This document shows, in pieces, positions 18,405 to 42,052 of a stretch of 64,000 nucleotides of DNA (its first letter is position 1; the number at the start of each line of letters is the position of its first letter). The position numbers were made by a program, and so were the translations under genes. Location: NCBI GenBank assembly GCA_033002965.1, contig JAURVB010012358.1:124001-188000 (forward strand). Direction: 5' to 3'. The DNA is from Piper betle (Eukaryota > Streptophyta > Magnoliopsida > Piperales > Piperaceae). The notes below the pieces were generated by a model that did no database searches, was not told the origin of the DNA, and saw nothing but the letters and a program-made list of their open reading frames with translations.

Positions 18405-19230
18405 CTCCAAGCAGGAAGAAGAAGGCTAGGGATAGGAGAATAAGGTCATTGGAGGAGAGGAGGGAAGGAGAAATGGTGAAAATGGGAGGGAAAAGATGAG
18501 TTTTATAAGAAATAAAAGGGTGGTTGGCTTGATGACCTCATATGTATGGTGTCATACCTAAAGAGGCATGAGTTGAATTAGATAAAGAGGTATAAGTTGG
18601 ATTAGATAAAGAGGTATGAGTTTGAGTTAGCTAAATAGGTATTGGTTGGGATAGCTGAAAAGGTATGGGTCAGGTTAGCTAAAGAGGTATAGGTTGTGTT
18701 AGATCAAAACCTAAAAAACTTAAAGTTTTAACCCTAAAGGGATCGGGTCAACCTTAGGAATTGCACTACAGGTTCTAAAGGAGGCTTAGGATAGTCCAAG
18801 GTTATTTAACATATGCAACATAAAAGCCACGTGAGGGATGCATTCCTAGCTTCTAATTCTATACTACTAAACTAGACCAAACATGGAAAAGTCAGGCGTG
18901 TACCATCCAAACGGGTATACCAAGCACCGAAGAAAGGTTGGGTAGACATACAGCATACCATACAAAAGAAGGGTCGGACCTTACAAACCCAATTCGGGTA
19001 ACAACCGACCTGGCAGTAACACCCCCAGGCTAATGGCTAGGTTTTACACCCACTCTGACCAATGGCGGCCATATCCGGCTACTAGCCAGTCTCTTGCCGA
19101 GACAAGTGGCGTTTTTTTTTTTTTAAAAAAATGATTTAATCTGGTCCATTCTAGTAATTGGACAGCCCAAATTAATTTTTCTTCTCTCGGGGACTGGCTA
19201 TCCAATATATATATATAGTAGAAAAACATT

Positions 19231-19384
19231 CATTTGTGACCGCTTTATCGGTCACAAAAATGTGTCTGCATTGCAACGAGTTTGCAATATTTGCGACCTC
19301 TCATTTGCAACTACTTATGCAGTTGCAAATTTCCAACCTTATTGCAATGGGTTTGCAACCGTCAAAAATTTTCCAACCGTATTG
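19231..19384. other. Left part of a split older element rich in TTGCAA motifs
   Basis: A perfect hairpin (TTTGTGACCG at 19233-19242, six-base loop, CGGTCACAAA at 19249-19258) is followed by many TTGCAA, GCAAC and GCGACC words. The same word usage resumes right of the inserted LTR element (24095-24800). Clustered short motifs with hairpins suggest the subterminal region of a DNA transposon. No terminal inverted repeat or target duplication could be fixed. Confidence 0.45.
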
Positions 19385-20337
19385 TGTTGGGAAATATACA
19401 CTCCAGCGAAAAACAAGCCAGAAAATATTTCCCCTACTCGATGAAATGAATAGGAGACACCCAAGATAAAAATGGATGGAAACTTTCCTCCCAATTTAGA
19501 GAAAAGAAAACCAACCTACTCGATCAACTTTGATTAAGAAATCTCTTACAATCAAGTATCGAAATAAAATTTGAGAAAACTCTCCTAACCTAAATCAGAT
19601 CAATAACAAGATCTGAAAGATACAATTCTTGAGAAATTGAGAAAAATATCATACACCTCAAATGAAAAATGGATCAATCTCACACCCTGGATTACGACCC
19701 CACTTCAACTTGAGATGATGAAAAACTTCTCCAAACTCTCCCCTTGTGAGTGAAACCACTCCCCGTTATATGTGGAAAAACTCCACCTAATACATGTAGA
19801 AAATTCTACCAAAGTGTGAAAAACTTCACCCCAATAAAAGTAGAAACTCTACCCAAATGTGGAAAACTCCACCCAAAAGAGTAACACTACTCCCAATTAC
19901 AATCCACAGACAAAGGTAGAGAAAGAAAAGAAATTAACCACTGTTGATCTTGTTGAAGAACCCGAAGTCATATCTTCACCTCACAACAAACAATTTCACT
20001 TTCTTCTCCCACATGCACTACCAATAGTGACCCTGTCTAGATCTGTAATCCCTCAAGTCTCCCCTAAAGGAGAACACTCCATGGAACTTCCCCAAAGGGA
20101 AAGCACACCGAACACATACCTCTAATCACATATTTATAGACTAGAGATATGAATACCACTTGGAAATGAAGAGCCAACTCCAAACACTACTTCTTGAGCA
20201 TTGGAATCCTCACTAATGAGTCTCTTCACGTATTCCACAAATTCTCATCGAATTCGTCGTACCTCTTGGTTTATCTTCATGTCTTCACGACTTTCAATGT
20301 GACTGAACGCTTTCTCATGGGAGGGAATATCTCAACA
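19385..20337 (-). repeat. 3' LTR of the gene-capturing element
   Basis: On the plus strand it starts TGTTGGGAAATATAC and ends ATCTCAACA; on the minus strand this is TGTTGAGAT...CCCAACA. A degenerate run of roughly 22-base units (AACTCCACC, ATTCTACC, CTTCACC) lies at about 19745-19885. The 88-codon frame at 19859-20125 is repeated in the other LTR and is not a gene. Confidence 0.95.
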
Positions 20338-20352
20338 ATTCTCCCCTTCCCG
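20338..20352 (-). promoter_or_regulatory. Polypurine tract of the gene-capturing element
   Basis: The minus strand reads GGGAAGGGGAGAAT directly against the 3' LTR, the expected plus-strand primer. Confidence 0.8.
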
Positions 20353-20589
20353 AGCATGAGAAACACCTTGGAAAAATTTCCACACATGTGCATCCTTGCT
20401 TCCATCAATCACAACACAACCCATCGATAACCAAGGCGCATACAAGCATACTCAAGTCAGCTCGATTACGGGTCTTTGACCCACCTGCCTGAAAATGCTA
20501 CACCTCATTAGCATCAATCGGCCTTACCACTTTCTTGAATGTGACTCGTCATGCCTCTTCGACACAATTCCCTTTATGGATTTTCTCAA

Positions 20590-21030
20590 TTAGCAACTGT
20601 CTACCCTCTGGCTCGAACAGTGCACCCACCTGGGAGAAAACCCAAAACTGAGGTTGGAATACGCACCATAGGAACAATTCATCAAACATTGCTCCGCACA
20701 CTCTCCCGTACTCACATTCAGCTTGGAGATGGGAAGATCCAACAACTTGATCAGCCCCAAGCTCCTGAACTTGTCCCCCTCACCGCATTCGGCATCGCTA
20801 CACTTCGCCATCCTAGTCAGCTGGGTGCCAAGCAAGCACTTGCACTCAGACAGCCCATTACAACCGCAGTGAGAGAAGAAGTGATAGGGGATCCGAGGTC
20901 TGTTCCACACCAGGTCCCAAACCACCGTCACTGGTAGCCATGTCCGTTGCTCCAGTATGCCGGACCTGTTGAGCTGGAACCTTCATATCAAGGAAGAGTT
21001 GGAGACCGATATGGTGAGCACCATCATTGT
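20590..21030 (-). pseudogene. Captured fragment of an S-domain (G-type lectin) receptor-like kinase
   Basis: The minus-strand frame shows, in order, part of the S-locus glycoprotein domain (LNRSGILEQRTW and VWDLVWNRP, about 20900-21000), an EGF-like stretch (CGCNGLSECKC), and a PAN/apple-type domain (FRSLGLIKLLDLPISKLN, then CAEQCLMNCSYGAYSN, near 20660-20760). This order is that of the extracellular part of plant G-type lectin S-receptor-like Ser/Thr kinases. The lectin, transmembrane and kinase parts are absent. At least one in-frame stop lies near 21010. It is on the same strand as the retrotransposon, so it could be part of its transcript. Confidence 0.85.
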
Positions 21031-21229
21031 CGACCATACCACTTGTCGACTACCACATGAGGAGGGAAATATTTTAACGCATCTCCCCTAACGACTCATG
21101 TGCAATGTTCTCTATCTCCCCTGATTAGGACTTCTAGCACATCTCCCATACTCGTATAAAAGAAACACTTATGCTAGCATAGCCTAAAGGTCATCTCGAC
21201 AACATATACGAGTAGGTCTCGATCATGAT

Positions 21230-21500
21230 CATGGAGTACATCGCCCCCGTTGAGTGCATCATCCTCAACGTCCTCTACGCGACCATCGACTTCACCATCT
21301 GCAAGTCAATCCGGATGTCATAGGAGGTCGACCGCTCCCACGACCAAACACTCTCCATCAAAGAAGACAAGAGCAAGACGGGACTCCATCACCTGAGTCG
21401 CCGACATCAAGACAGCGAGCTCCGTCCCTGTGGTGATGCTCAACAAGCCATTGTTCAGCTACACCTTCGCAGATCTCCCCTCGGCAACCTCCCTCTTCAA
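21230..21500. other. Unidentified, coding-like stretch inside the element
   Basis: Base composition rises here. A plus-strand frame (MEYIAPVECIILNVLYATID, about 21233-21292) and its continuation in another frame look protein-like. I do not recognise the family, and the frame is broken by a stop near 21320. It could be a third captured fragment. Confidence 0.3.
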
Positions 21501-21509
21501 TCGAGAAGC

Positions 21510-21860
21510 TCACTCTTGCCGAAGGCCACACTTGACAAGGCGGACATGCACTTGCCGGCCATTTGTCAAGCTAGAAGAAGTAGCTATCCCAGTGAGAACA
21601 ATAGCAAAAGTGAAATGATCAGGTCTCACACCTGCATACACCATCCTGCACCAAAAGCTCCAAACTTTGGAGTAGGAAAACTGTAAATACCCGGCAATCA
21701 CAGCATTCCGTGACACCGTATCCCTCACTGAGCATTTGCAGAAGAACACCTCTGCATCGGAAACCTTCCTATATCTGATCAAAGCTGTGAGGAACGCGTT
21801 CATCAGAAACACGTTCGACTCGAACCCGAGCTTCACGACCAGCACAAGCACCTGGTACGC
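21510..21860 (-). pseudogene. Captured fragment of a pentatricopeptide repeat (PPR) gene
   Basis: About 115 codons stay open on the minus strand and read as successive PPR motifs of the plant PLS type: VVKLGFESNVFLMNAFLTAL, VSDAEVFFCKCSVRDTVSRN, AVIAGYLQ, RMVYAGVRPDHFTFAIVLTG, and NGRQVHVRLVKCG. PPR proteins bind organelle RNA for editing or processing. Consensus positions have changed (for example SRNAVIAGY where SWNAMIAGY is usual), so it has probably been free of selection. It ends at a stop at 21510-21512 and is fused upstream, in frame, to the GC-rich block. Most PPR genes lack introns, so an exon-only fragment does not itself prove capture through RNA. Confidence 0.9.
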
Positions 21861-21879
21861 ACCGCTCGCATCCTCCGAC

Positions 21880-23050
21880 CATCGCAGCCCTGCCGGCTGT
21901 TGTTTCCGGCTGGTTTCCGCAGCCGCGCTGGCTGCGGCACAAACACCTTGGCCGCCAACAGCAACTAAGACGAGTTGGTTTGCCACCTTAGCACCGCCGA
22001 CTTTGGCCTGCCAGCAGCAGCAACATAACTGGGCCGCCGTCGCGGACCCGCATGTCTGCCCATCGCGGCCTTGCTTGGCTGCCCGTCGCGACTCTGCTTG
22101 ATCGCTGTCGCGTTTGCAGCAGCAGACCACCGGCTGCTGGCTCCCCTTGGCCGCCGTAGCGCCGGCCGATCACTGGACGTCGGTCTGCAGCAACAGGATC
22201 TCCGACCGCCCAGTTGCGCTTGCAAATCGCCTAGCCGCCCGTCGCGGCTACGCCTGGCCACCATCGCGGGCTGGTCCGCTTGAACGCGGCCCCCCAGCCA
22301 CCCTGGCCACAGGCGCCTGCACCGCCTCCTTCGCCGGTCGCGACCCCGGCCTAGCGGCCTCCCTGCCGCCCGGCCTCGCTGGTCGCCGGCCACCCGCCTG
22401 TCGCGGACTGGGCTGCTTCCAGGTGGCCCCCGGGCTTCTCCGCCGGCCGCCCCTCAGGCTTTTGGCAGCCAGCCAACGGCTCCTCTCTTAGCCGCCGGCC
22501 CCAGATCTTGGCCAATGGCTGCAGGCTGCAGCTCCAGCTCTTGCTGGTCACTGACTGCTAGCACCAGATCCAGAAACAAATGGGCCGCCATCACGGCTCC
22601 TCTCTGGCCTCCGGTCGAGTGCAAGGTTTGCCGCCAGCTGTGGCCCGCCGGCAGTGGGTTGCCAGCCTCTCACTGTCGGCTGCGGCTGCGCTGCGCCGCC
22701 GGTTCCACCTCTCGGCTATCGGCTCCGGCTCCGCTCTCAGTCGCTGACCGCCACTCCTTCGTGCATTTGTCGCTGCAAACACTGGAACACAGCTACCGCT
22801 TGACCGCTGCGACTCCGACTGGTCGCCCGCCGCGGCTCCTCTGCTGGCTGCCGCTGTCTCGGGCTCCAGTTGCGGATCTAAATTGGGCCGCATGTCACAG
22901 CCCAGACGGCTGCGGGATTGGGCCGCCTGGTCGCGGCCCTCAGCCTCCATGGCTGCAGGAGCGCATGGGCTGCCATCGCAGCCCCCGGGTTCTCGGCCGG
23001 ATGCTAGCTGCAGCCAGCTTGCTGCAGGTCACCGCTTCACCGACCACCAT
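21880..23050 (-). repeat. GC-rich degenerate repeat block in the 5' interior
   Basis: This 1.2-kb block is strongly GC-rich against AT-rich surroundings. It repeats words such as GGCCGCC, TCGCGGC, GGCTGC and GTCGCGAC without a fixed period. Long overlapping frames on both strands are a by-product of the base composition; no domain is visible in their Arg/Ala/Gly/Pro-rich translations. It lies between the primer binding site and the captured fragments. Confidence 0.75.
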
Positions 23051-23120
23051 AACATGAACCTCCACAGGTCATGAAACCACAGCTCCACAAACCAAAGCAT
23101 GATCCAAAATATGAACCAAA

Positions 23121-23132
23121 GCTCTGATACCA
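23121..23132 (-). promoter_or_regulatory. Primer binding site of the gene-capturing element (tRNA-Met type)
   Basis: The plus strand reads GCTCTGATACCA; the minus strand is an exact TGGTATCAGAGC, two bases inside the 5' LTR. Confidence 0.95.
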
Positions 23133-23134
23133 CT

Positions 23135-24094
23135 TGTTGGGAAATATACACTCCAACGAAAAACAAGCCAGAAAATATTTCCCCTACTCGATGAAATGAA
23201 TAGGAGACACCCAAGATAAAAATGGATGGAAACTTTCCTCCCAATTTAGAGAAAAGAAAACCAACCTACTCGATCAACTTTGATTAAGAAATCTCTTACA
23301 ATCAAGTATCAGAAAATGAGAAAACTTTTGAGAAAACTCTCCTAACCTAAATCAGATCAATAACAAGATCTGAAAGATACAATTCTTGAGAAATTGAGAA
23401 AAATATCATACACCTCAAATGAAAAATGGATCAATCTCACACCCTGGATTACGACCCTACTTCAACTTGAGATGATGAAAAACTTCTCCAAACTCTCCCC
23501 TTGTGAGTGAAACCACTCCCCGTTATATGTGGAAAAACTCCACCCAATACATGTAGAAAATTCTACCAAAGTGTGAAAAACTTCACCCCAATAAAAGTAG
23601 AAACTCTACCCAAATGTGGAAAACTCCACCCAAAAGAGTAACACTACTCCCAATTACAATCCACAGACAAAGGTAGAGAAAGAAAAGAAATTAACCACTG
23701 TTGATCTTGTCGAAGAACCCGAAGTCATATCTTCACCTCACAACAAACAATTTCACTTTCTTCTCCCACATGCACTACCAATAGTGACCCTGTCTAGATC
23801 TGTAATCCCTCAAGTCTCCCCTAAAGGAGAACACTCCATGGAACTTCCCCAAAGGGAAAGCACACCGAACACATACCTCTAATCACATATTTATAGACTA
23901 GAGATATGAATACCACTTGGAAATGAAGAGCCAACTCCAAACACTACTTCTTGAGCATTGGAATCCTCACTAATGAGTCTCTTCACGTATTCCACAAATT
24001 CTCATCGAATTCGTCGTACCTCTTGGTTTATCTTCATGTCTTCACGACTTTCAATGTGACTGAACGCTTTCTCATGGGAGGGAATATCTCAACA
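23135..24094 (-). repeat. 5' LTR of the gene-capturing element
   Basis: It is near-identical to the 19385-20337 LTR. The main difference is a short indel cluster near 23310-23330. Confidence 0.95.
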
Positions 24095-25060
24095 TATTGC
24101 AACTGATTGTGTCCGTTGCATTATAAATTATAATATTAGTGACCAATTTACGTTTGGCAGCCCATCTTTTGCAACCGGTAAGTAGCACTTGGCAGGTTGT
24201 AGTAGAGATGATGATCATGGGTGACGTCTTTTGTAAATAGAAATCTTAGACTTGTTGGGTATTATGGTTACTTTTGTGGATCAGCTATAGCGTCTATAAT
24301 GTTGGGAGATGAATCGAGATATTTCACTGCTTAACGAAATCTTCAAACTTTGTACTGGTCATATTGGTTTCTTTGTGTCGTTAAGAATCCGATGCGTATG
24401 TTATCACTCTTAAAATCTTAAGCTTTGCTGCTGTCAGTTTTGGTTTGTGTCTGCATCAAATATATGCTGGAGTGTCCCATTTCATAGAAACTGCTATTGT
24501 TGATTATTCTCTGCAATAAGATGTTAATTGAAAGCACAGCTCCAATCTGTTTCATTATATCGATATCTCAATTTTTTCAATTGAGTTGGTGGTTGAAATT
24601 TTTATTTTTTTAAATTTTGCAGCCTCCTTGCAACAGAAATGCGATTGTGATTATTTTTTTATTTTGTTTTAAATTTGTAACTGCCTTGCAACGGAAAAGC
24701 GGTTGCAAATAATATTTTTAATTTTTTTGCATATTTGTAACCACTTTAAAATCAAAACACGATTGCAAAAATTGCAACCGCTGGCTGGGGTGGGGGCAGC
24801 TACTGGCGAGGGTGCAGCGGCGGCGAATAGACCGCGGGGGCTGGCGGGGGCGGCTGCCGATTGCTGTGGCCAGGGGCTAGAAGAGGAGGTGGGGAATAAG
24901 GAGAGCCGTTGGATCAAGATCCAATGGCTCTCCTTTGTAATGTGCTGCAAAAGCATGCAACGCATTACAATATTTTGGTATATATATATATATGCGTGTG
25001 TAGAGAAAGAGAGAAAGAGAGAAAGAGATACGTTGTATATGTTAGAGGTTATAATATACA
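24095..25060. other. Right part of the split older TTGCAA-rich element
   Basis: TTGCAAC, GCAACC and GCGGTTGCAA words recur, especially at 24620-24785, matching 19260-19380. A GC-rich patch (24781-24890) is followed by a 15-bp-arm hairpin (24901-24915 and 24918-24932, two-base loop, one mismatch), GAGAGCCGTTGGATC against its complement. The class is uncertain; a Mutator- or CACTA-like DNA transposon would fit the clustered subterminal motifs. Confidence 0.4.
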
Positions 25061-40661: not shown

Positions 40662-41891
40662 TCAATCTCCTTGTTCAGTCTTAATTTCAATTGCACCATA
40701 TGGAAAAAACTTCTGTCCAGGAGAAAATGACCAACAACCACACCAGATGCCATGTTTGTCTACTATCGTCCAAGCAATAGCTGACTTGTGATCTTTTAGT
40801 ATTTTAATCGGCTTCTCTTTCTGCAATATAGTTAGCTCTGAAGATATAATAATAGGAAGAGTGTCATCAAGCCCTAAGAAAATATACCTGAGATGTTTTG
40901 GAAGTTGCTTTAGCTCCAAAATAGGTGGTACTTCAATTGATGGCAGCAATTTGTGGAATGGTAGATCTGAGGTTTCCATAACTTTGAATCGTTGAGGCAA
41001 AATTGGTTGTGAATCTAATAATTTAACCATCTCATCCACATCAATATCTTCTTCACAAAGAGAATTTATGGATTTATGTAATGAGTTACTAAACTGGTCC
41101 CCTTTGCATCCGAGTAAGCTAACCAATGTATTGAGTTCATTTTCGTTATTTGGTTTTTCATCTTTTTCTTTAACTTCATTAAGCTGAACTGGTTCTTGTA
41201 AAGTAATACCACTCTGGGTTGTTATAGCTTTGCAATGCTCTTGACCATCATTCCTTGGTTGTTCTGTTTGGCTATGAAGTACACCCTTGGGTCGCTCACT
41301 TGGTTCCTTGTTTAATTGCACCATAACTTGTTGCATAAACTGTTGTTGTTGTTGTTGCTGATTCTGCATAAATTGTTGCATAGTTTGTTGCATGTTTTGT
41401 TGCATGGAATTGAACATTTGGACCAAATCTAGTTGTTGTTGTTGCTGAAAAGAAAGTGAAGGGGATTGATAATGCTGTGATGGTGGTGGTGGATTATTGG
41501 GGACAACAACCGATTGTGAAGAATTATTCCATGAAAAATTGGGGTTATTGCACCATCCCGCATGGTAGGTGTTGGAATAGGGATTGTTGTTCCAAATAAA
41601 GTTGCCTACGTAATTAACTTGATCTGTTGCACATTGACCTGTAAAATGTCCTTGTCCACACCATTCACACCTTGGTTCTACAGCCTTAACCTGTCTCTGT
41701 ATATTAAGAATTTGAACTTCATTAGTTAAAACACTGACCTGAGCAGATAAAGCAGTAAGTGCATCTAATTCTAAAACTCTGGTAGTCCTCCATGAATGCA
41801 TGGCTTCTTCCTCTATGGCTTCTTGTGCTCTTCTTCCAGCAGCACACAAGTTTCTCAAAGTCCTTTCAATCTTTGAATCACAAGAAGACAA
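40662..41891 (-). CDS. Chimeric Gag-RT-integrase frame of Athila/Tat type, 409 aa
   Basis: The longest open frame in the window. Residues 1-70 match the end of the Gag core (SWRTTRVLELDALTALSAQV). Residues 75-87 (CEWCGQGHFTGQC) are a Cys-X2-Cys-X3-His-X4-Cys knuckle. About 110-200 is Asn/Gln-rich with poly-Gln. About 310-375 matches the start of Athila/Tat RT (LPKHLRYIFLGLDDTLPIII, then AIAWTIVDKHGI). The last 20 or so residues (KFFPYGAIEIKTEQGD) match the end of integrase. Protease, the catalytic part of RT, RNase H and the integrase core are missing, so two deletions have joined the pieces without breaking the frame. The N-terminal Gag is also missing. It is not expected to be enzymatically active; the RNA-binding knuckle is intact. 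Confidence 0.8.
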   Translation of the reverse strand: MSSCDSKIERTLRNLCAAGRRAQEAIEEEAMHSWRTTRVLELDALTALSAQVSVLTNEVQILNIQRQVKAVEPRCEWCGQGHFTGQCATDQVNYVGNFIWNNNPYSNTYHAGWCNNPNFSWNNSSQSVVVPNNPPPPSQHYQSPSLSFQQQQQLDLVQMFNSMQQNMQQTMQQFMQNQQQQQQQFMQQVMVQLNKEPSERPKGVLHSQTEQPRNDGQEHCKAITTQSGITLQEPVQLNEVKEKDEKPNNENELNTLVSLLGCKGDQFSNSLHKSINSLCEEDIDVDEMVKLLDSQPILPQRFKVMETSDLPFHKLLPSIEVPPILELKQLPKHLRYIFLGLDDTLPIIISSELTILQKEKPIKILKDHKSAIAWTIVDKHGIWCGCWSFSPGQKFFPYGAIEIKTEQGD

Positions 41892-42052
41892 GGGTGACCG
41901 TACTAATAAACAAATGATAATAAATAATAGAAGGAAGAAGACAATGATATAGTTTATTTTTTCTTTTTTTAAATATAATCAGACACTTAAATCTAAAAAG
42001 AAAAGAAAAACACTCAAAATTCTAATCCTAAATTAATTAAGAAAATTTCATC

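Follow-up and report, generated by a model that had tools for sequence, protein, structure and literature searches.

How does a long terminal repeat (LTR) retrotransposon come to carry pieces of several unrelated host genes, and how are such pieces handed on to new copies? We addressed this question at a locus of Piper betle (assembly GCA_033002965.1, contig JAURVB010012358.1, positions 124,001 to 188,000), a stretch of 64,000 nt that we call the window, in which positions 19385-24094 are a complete, intact, non-autonomous LTR retrotransposon insertion on the minus strand. Our reading, to which we give a probability of roughly 85%, is that this element belongs to a non-autonomous Ty1/copia-type lineage that picks up pieces of host mRNA during reverse transcription and passes them on. 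The insertion has two LTRs with TG...CA ends, a target-site duplication (TSD), a primer binding site (PBS) and a polypurine tract (PPT), and because the PBS and the PPT both lie on the minus strand, this is the element's sense strand:

19385-20337, minus strand: 3' LTR, 953 nt, with TG...CA ends
23135-24094, minus strand: 5' LTR, 960 nt
19380-19384, no strand: left TSD, TATTG
24095-24099, no strand: right TSD, TATTG
23121-23132, minus strand: PBS TGGTATCAGAGC, adjoining the right LTR, which we take to match the 3' end of initiator tRNA-Met
20347-20340, minus strand: PPT AGGGGAGA, adjoining the left LTR
20363-20355 and 20319-20311, minus strand: 9-bp inverted repeat flanking the PPT
about 20138-20131, minus strand: TATAAATA within the 3' LTR
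20338-20598, minus strand: 3' region preceding the PPT, common, in pieces, to an older branch of the family
21879-23060, minus strand: GC-rich leader

The original prediction had described near-identical LTRs, a perfect TATTG duplication, a PBS and a PPT, and all of these stand: the LTR pair agrees at 949 of 960 positions (BLAST) and differs by four clean transitions and one scrambled or indel patch. It had also reported no retroviral protein motif, and Pfam likewise gave no gag or pol domain in the interior open reading frames (ORFs) of at least 60 aa, one of which (21397-21618) was scanned in part only. Other weak Pfam matches were Peptidase_C58 (0.28) and FAXC_N (0.011), under the cut-off, in the leader.

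In the element's own sense the cargo runs from the GC-rich leader through a sense PPR piece, an antisense dynamin-related piece and a short non-coding stretch to a sense S-domain/PAN piece. By sequence comparison, three host-gene pieces are thus aboard, not two, and all are decayed:

21878-21513, minus strand (sense): PPR fragment, no stop; Pfam PPR_2, 2.7e-9
21189-21359, plus strand (antisense to the element): dynamin-related G-domain fragment with in-frame stops
21024-20599, minus strand (sense): S-domain/EGF/PAN fragment of a G-type lectin receptor kinase, one stop

The PPR and S-domain fragments had been predicted on the sense strand, where Pfam and tblastn also place them; the third, antisense dynamin-related piece at 21189-21359 had been overlooked. 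The PPR piece corresponds to the central part of a protein some 600 aa long, and its tblastn matches stop at 21525-21513. Within 21881-21513, the relatives P0003-P0013 and P0015-P0024 are 45-64% identical to it (tblastn), and the best pieces of most of P0025-P0028 reach 23-35%; among angiosperm PPR proteins, identity is 63% to one of Magnolia sinica and 59% to one of Phoenix. In the PPR tree the element piece and P0002 stand together at full support, separate from the named species, and P0002 may represent either a donor pseudogene or a further element copy. The S-domain piece is 65% identical to P0014 in an alignment of 162 aa that contains one stop and 20 gap residues, and it matches PAN_2 (2.6e-5) and S_locus_glycop (8.5e-4, under the cut-off) in Pfam. 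The dynamin piece is weak when taken alone (Pfam 0.0044, under the cut-off; DRP1A at 0.013 in a PDB search), and its frame has a third-position GC content of 0.90. Five of its 66 matches in the host genome are stop-free open frames of 486-638 codons at 66-70% identity, and most of the others are element copies sharing the same TAG. One of the five, the host gene L066 on contig C7368, presumably DRP4, is 87% identical to the piece over 171 nt, and Pfam assigns it to the dynamins (Dynamin_M 2.5e-56, Dynamin_N 2.1e-21). The donor search that the original prediction had proposed therefore yields homologues of the S-domain and dynamin pieces in the host genome and of the PPR piece in databases. The idea that the fragments form a continuous host locus around an insertion is rejected, as the PPR and receptor-kinase proteins compared here match the window at E 1e-3 inside the element only. 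Because the pieces are decayed and common to sister copies, they were captured before the present insertion, and they are most likely inactive as proteins. A relative from public data, P0001, encodes a protein in which the leader/PPR start runs directly into the S-domain end, the joint lying at two GGTGCGTA sites of the window, which suggests a deletion at these sites.

The RNA step is read from an older branch of the family, represented by ten copies (L052-L054, L056-L058 and L061-L064), namely six of the first 20 regions fetched and all four of a second set. At L055, the closest host gene for the S-domain piece, the S-domain exon ends in GAATTGG, followed by GTACGC, and the next exon, beginning ATCCATTGCG, is preceded by CTCCAG, with a 254-nt GT-AG intron between the two. 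Nine of the ten older copies read GAATTGGATCC directly, with the intron precisely gone; the junction was found by string in seven of them (L052, L054, L056, L058, L062, L063 and L064) and by BLAST in L053 and L057, and L061 ends before it. Since the intron is precisely missing, the S-domain piece was captured through spliced RNA, and the intron-less exon junction that had been proposed as a sign of such capture is thus present for this piece in the older branch. An independent record, P0014, runs into what by eye is apparently the same intron start. Capture of the S-domain piece as genomic DNA is rejected on the evidence of this junction.

The older branch also carries a different upstream cargo. 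Its ten copies all have the S-domain piece and, next to it, a stretch with a second, buried PPT/LTR-start junction (see below). Nine of them have LTR matches of 80-90%, the exception being L056 as far as it was fetched, and eight, all but L056 and L061, have the 3' region. The aligned pieces are 76-91% alike, as against 93-100% in most of the window family. Upstream there are an antisense pectate-lyase piece (Jun a 1, 4.9e-26, PDB search, from L052) and a sense BAHD acyltransferase piece (PF02458 at 9.4e-7 and PDB at 1.6e-13, both for L052), parts of the BAHD stretch being present in nine of the ten copies. In L061 the BAHD piece is gone, the pectate-lyase stretch is down to 58 nt and the leader is joined to the buried junction. 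The best 40 of 311 candidates for the pectate-lyase stretch gave 42 matches, and as several of these are partial, further branches may exist. The upstream cargoes of the two branches have no tblastx match at 1e-3; the best blastn match, of 39 nt at E 0.009, is to the related locus L065.

Sister copies were sought with the LTR in the host genome (G000, 527 Mb), where the best 40 of 1473 first-look candidates, the window's two LTRs included, were scored and matched at 98-100% identity. The interior of the window's element lies beside the LTR in 24 of 30 loci cut from these matches, on 18 contigs, window included. Among the 20 regions fetched, 13 have the window order as far as they reach, six belong to the related branch and one is a host gene region; among the 13, a contig end truncates L059, the PPR piece of L049 is missing its first 120 nt and the 5' LTR of L050 is short. 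The search for sister copies suggested earlier has thus found the same fragments in sister copies and other fragments in the older branch. For the dynamin stretch the genome holds 74 candidates, and the 40 that were scored are all at least 97% identical. Over 1541 nt of cargo, L041 is identical to the window, and between 1 and 43 differing sites were counted in each of nine other copies. The two LTRs of L041, like those of L042, show no substitutions, and the TSD is perfect in seven of the nine copies tested with both LTRs, the window among them. Judged from this near identity, the window family has moved recently. The leader is more variable between copies than the cargo (93-97% in L041-L047). 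L046 and L060 have the same cargo over 1541 nt, yet 11 sites differ between the two LTRs of L046, perhaps through LTR recombination. L018 consists of two oppositely oriented LTRs, about 300 nt from each other, and has no interior.

The buried junction, also missed by the original prediction, lies between upstream cargo and S-domain half:

21102-21054, minus strand: second PPT/LTR-start junction, with PPT AGGGGAGA at 21089-21082 and an 8-bp inverted repeat at 21102-21095 and 21061-21054

With this junction dividing it in two, the element has the appearance of a fusion. The interior contains five PPT-core sites, with further occurrences of AGGGGAGA at 21122 and 21481, and the buried site alone has both the repeat and an LTR-start-like stretch. 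When the interior was shuffled 2000 times, the inverted repeat was matched 49 times, the LTR-start score four times and both together never; this test was designed after the site had been seen. Of the 13 fetched copies of the window family, 11 retain the 8-bp repeat and the other two 7 bp of it. Seven of the ten older copies read GATGTGTTAA or GATGTGTTAAT at the junction, with the LTR-start TG, which is lost in the window family. We infer that two element genomes were fused at this junction and that most of the LTR between them was lost; at L027 an LTR stands between two interiors, an arrangement that could precede such a loss. Element fusion by template switching is described for cereals (PMC1950507). 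The view that at this seam a PPR/dynamin element had fused with an S-domain element was revised, since in the older branch the junction lies between the BAHD and S-domain pieces; the fusion therefore predates the PPR/dynamin cargo.

The lineage could have been assembled as follows. The proteins of a copia relative would act in trans, and reverse transcriptase would jump between co-packaged RNAs. Two element RNAs would have been fused, with the middle LTR mostly lost, and a later jump would have swapped the pectate-lyase/BAHD cargo for the GC-rich leader with the PPR and dynamin pieces. The composite would then have multiplied, one copy inserting recently at the window site. It is possible, at somewhat less than even odds, that the lineage is a modular chassis, in which LTRs, PBS and S-domain half stay constant and the upstream block between the PBS and the buried PPT is replaced by RNA recombination.

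Other routes to the same structure have to be weighed. Unequal recombination between neighbouring integrated copies could have produced the fusion without any jump of the reverse transcriptase; tandems that share an LTR can arise in this way, and LTR-sharing arrangements do exist at L027 and at L012, where an LTR is followed by 74 nt of PBS region. We consider this route unlikely, since the missing S-domain intron requires an RNA step, and the perfect TSD and near-identical outer LTRs of the window copy mark a single integration (by the criteria of PMC1950507), which dates the last move only. Still less probable is capture at the DNA level, in which an LTR element would have incorporated a gene-collecting Helitron or Pack-MULE that had inserted into it. 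The mixed orientation of the gene pieces, the GC-rich leader and the known ability of Helitrons and Pack-MULEs to bear several gene pieces would all fit, but inverted repeats of at least 20 nt in the interior amount to one 23-nt pair at 74% (Helitron ends fall outside this test), Pack-MULEs bear exons and introns (PMC4717578), and for the S-domain piece the exact absence of the GT-AG intron in nine of ten older copies refutes it.

We give hardly any credence to a decayed copia element that has lost gag-pol, carries incidental gene similarities and has a Sirevirus-like extra PPT as its buried PPT. Several PPT copies do occur near the 3' LTR in Sireviruses (PMC2829016), and the AGGGGAGA copies at 21122 and 21481 fit such extra PPTs. 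However, the gene similarities, being far beyond chance, already contradict this account, and the buried PPT has its repeat in the window family and the TG in most older copies, unlike the extra upstream PPTs of Sireviruses, which are described as having neither an inverted repeat nor a TG attachment site (PMC2829016).

Capture from mRNA by a copia-type lineage, which we prefer, also has observations weighing against it. Spliced capture was seen for the S-domain piece and the older branch only; in the window family the exon-junction part of the S-domain has been lost by deletion, L055 is itself frame-broken, and the intron was not confirmed in ten other receptor-kinase loci, where the second exon was not found. 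As PPR homologues and dynamin genes are long open frames, RNA and DNA capture are indistinguishable for these pieces, and the antisense dynamin and pectate-lyase pieces are not expected from simple sense copying of mRNA. Pectate lyase and BAHD were identified in L052, and the BAHD match of L053 is under the Pfam cut-off (0.014). At the buried junction the older branch has the 8-bp repeat in two of ten copies, 7 bp in one and less or none in seven (by script), and the PBS-like 11-mer beside it is a weak, unproved signal (22 of 1000 shuffles) that may belong to the S-domain. The interior is absent at six of the 30 LTR loci, the TSD does not match in two of the nine copies tested (L041 and L043), and no relative with pol was found.

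The Ty1/copia type is favoured by sequence features, namely the PPT repeat and the gag of the related locus L065. An inverted repeat around the junction of PPT and 3' LTR, found here together with a 5-bp TSD, is described for Ty1/copia elements, in almost every Sirevirus and in many, though not all, of the remaining copia elements (PMC2829016). L065 (C5082:17700-21200) has a copia gag (Retrotran_gag_2, 7.8e-16, Pfam) and matches the LTR end at 88% over 66 nt and the older-branch leader, located after the LTR end of L065, at 91% over 183 columns; pol was not recognised in the 3.5 kb of this locus examined. Reported Sirevirus traits are the PPT octamer AGGGGGAG and, in part of the genus, CGG-CCG repeats in the LTR (PMC2829016); our element has AGGGGAGA as its PPT and LTR repeats of the GTGGA...TCCAC type, and an AT/TG site follows the PPT despite the non-Sirevirus octamer.

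The LTRs contain a further structure:

19748-19892, minus strand: seven tandem 5-bp hairpins in the 3' LTR, with a copy in the other LTR at 23505-23649

All 35 pairs are Watson-Crick, with pairs changed between units. When the arms were re-dealt, 35 pairs were reached in 7 of 10,000 trials, and none of 300 LTR shuffles had more than five such hairpins within 175 nt. In twelve LTR stretches, drawn from the two branches, pairing that includes G-U holds in 383 of 401 cells, versus 30-74% when slid, and the array is largely kept in the older branch. In the minimum-energy RNA fold several arms pair at long range and not all seven hairpins form (z -2.3). The array may serve in RNA pairing or packaging and so favour the joining of elements, while slippage-type correction of palindromes could be another source of the pairs.

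Searches of Rfam (E up to 1), NCBIfam, a plasmid collection and, with one LTR pattern, viral and prokaryote contigs gave nothing informative. TTGCAAC motifs recur in the surroundings of the element (19226-19384 and 24095-24800) and are possibly subterminal repeats of a DNA transposon. Elsewhere in the window, an ORF of 438 aa at 40662-41978 resembles a retroelement gag, with no clear Pfam family and a motif that we take to be zinc-knuckle-like.

Elements of this kind are already known. Bs1 of maize is reportedly of low copy number; judged against its description, our element has dozens of copies, a second branch with swapped cargo, one antisense piece per branch and the buried junction. Bs1 is likewise an LTR retrotransposon, and it holds incomplete pieces of three host genes (PMC13317346). 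The original prediction of a Bs1-like gene-transducing family thus holds in that sister copies and homologues show a comparable family; membership in Bs1 itself is not claimed. The soybean GmaRetroS15 terminal-repeat retrotransposons in miniature (TRIMs) similarly carry exons only, from three genes, with 5-bp TSDs and mostly in two or more copies (PMC4717578), but they are 1,172-1,449 bp long, whereas ours is 4.7 kb with 953-nt LTRs and a cargo-exchanged sister branch. The complex Angela, Squiq and Opie elements are also two fused genomes in one insertion with TSDs (PMC1950507); they keep the middle LTR, of which our element retains about 30 nt of the start. Antisense coding-like stretches occur inside Grande, RIRE2 and Retand as well, without an identified source, and a review describes most antisense ORFs as being of unknown origin (PMC7264820); in our lineage they derive from dynamin-related and pectate-lyase genes. 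LTR elements often capture genes, with 672 cases in rice and 1343 in sorghum, PPR being among the domains listed (PMC3726574).

Set against Bs1 and the soybean TRIMs, the new part is the exchanged cargo on a shared chassis together with the fusion scar; a limited literature search found no report of such an exchange, a weak negative. The element is therefore ordinary in kind and unusual in the completeness of its preserved steps. If the modular chassis is true, successive branches would move different sets of host genes, and Bs1-like multi-gene captures would be joined single-capture elements, with the buried PPT/LTR-start junction as a general scar. The family provides antisense cargo with named host sources, and with spliced-RNA capture, fusion, block exchange of cargo and amplification in one genome, it would make the gathering of several genes by LTR elements testable.

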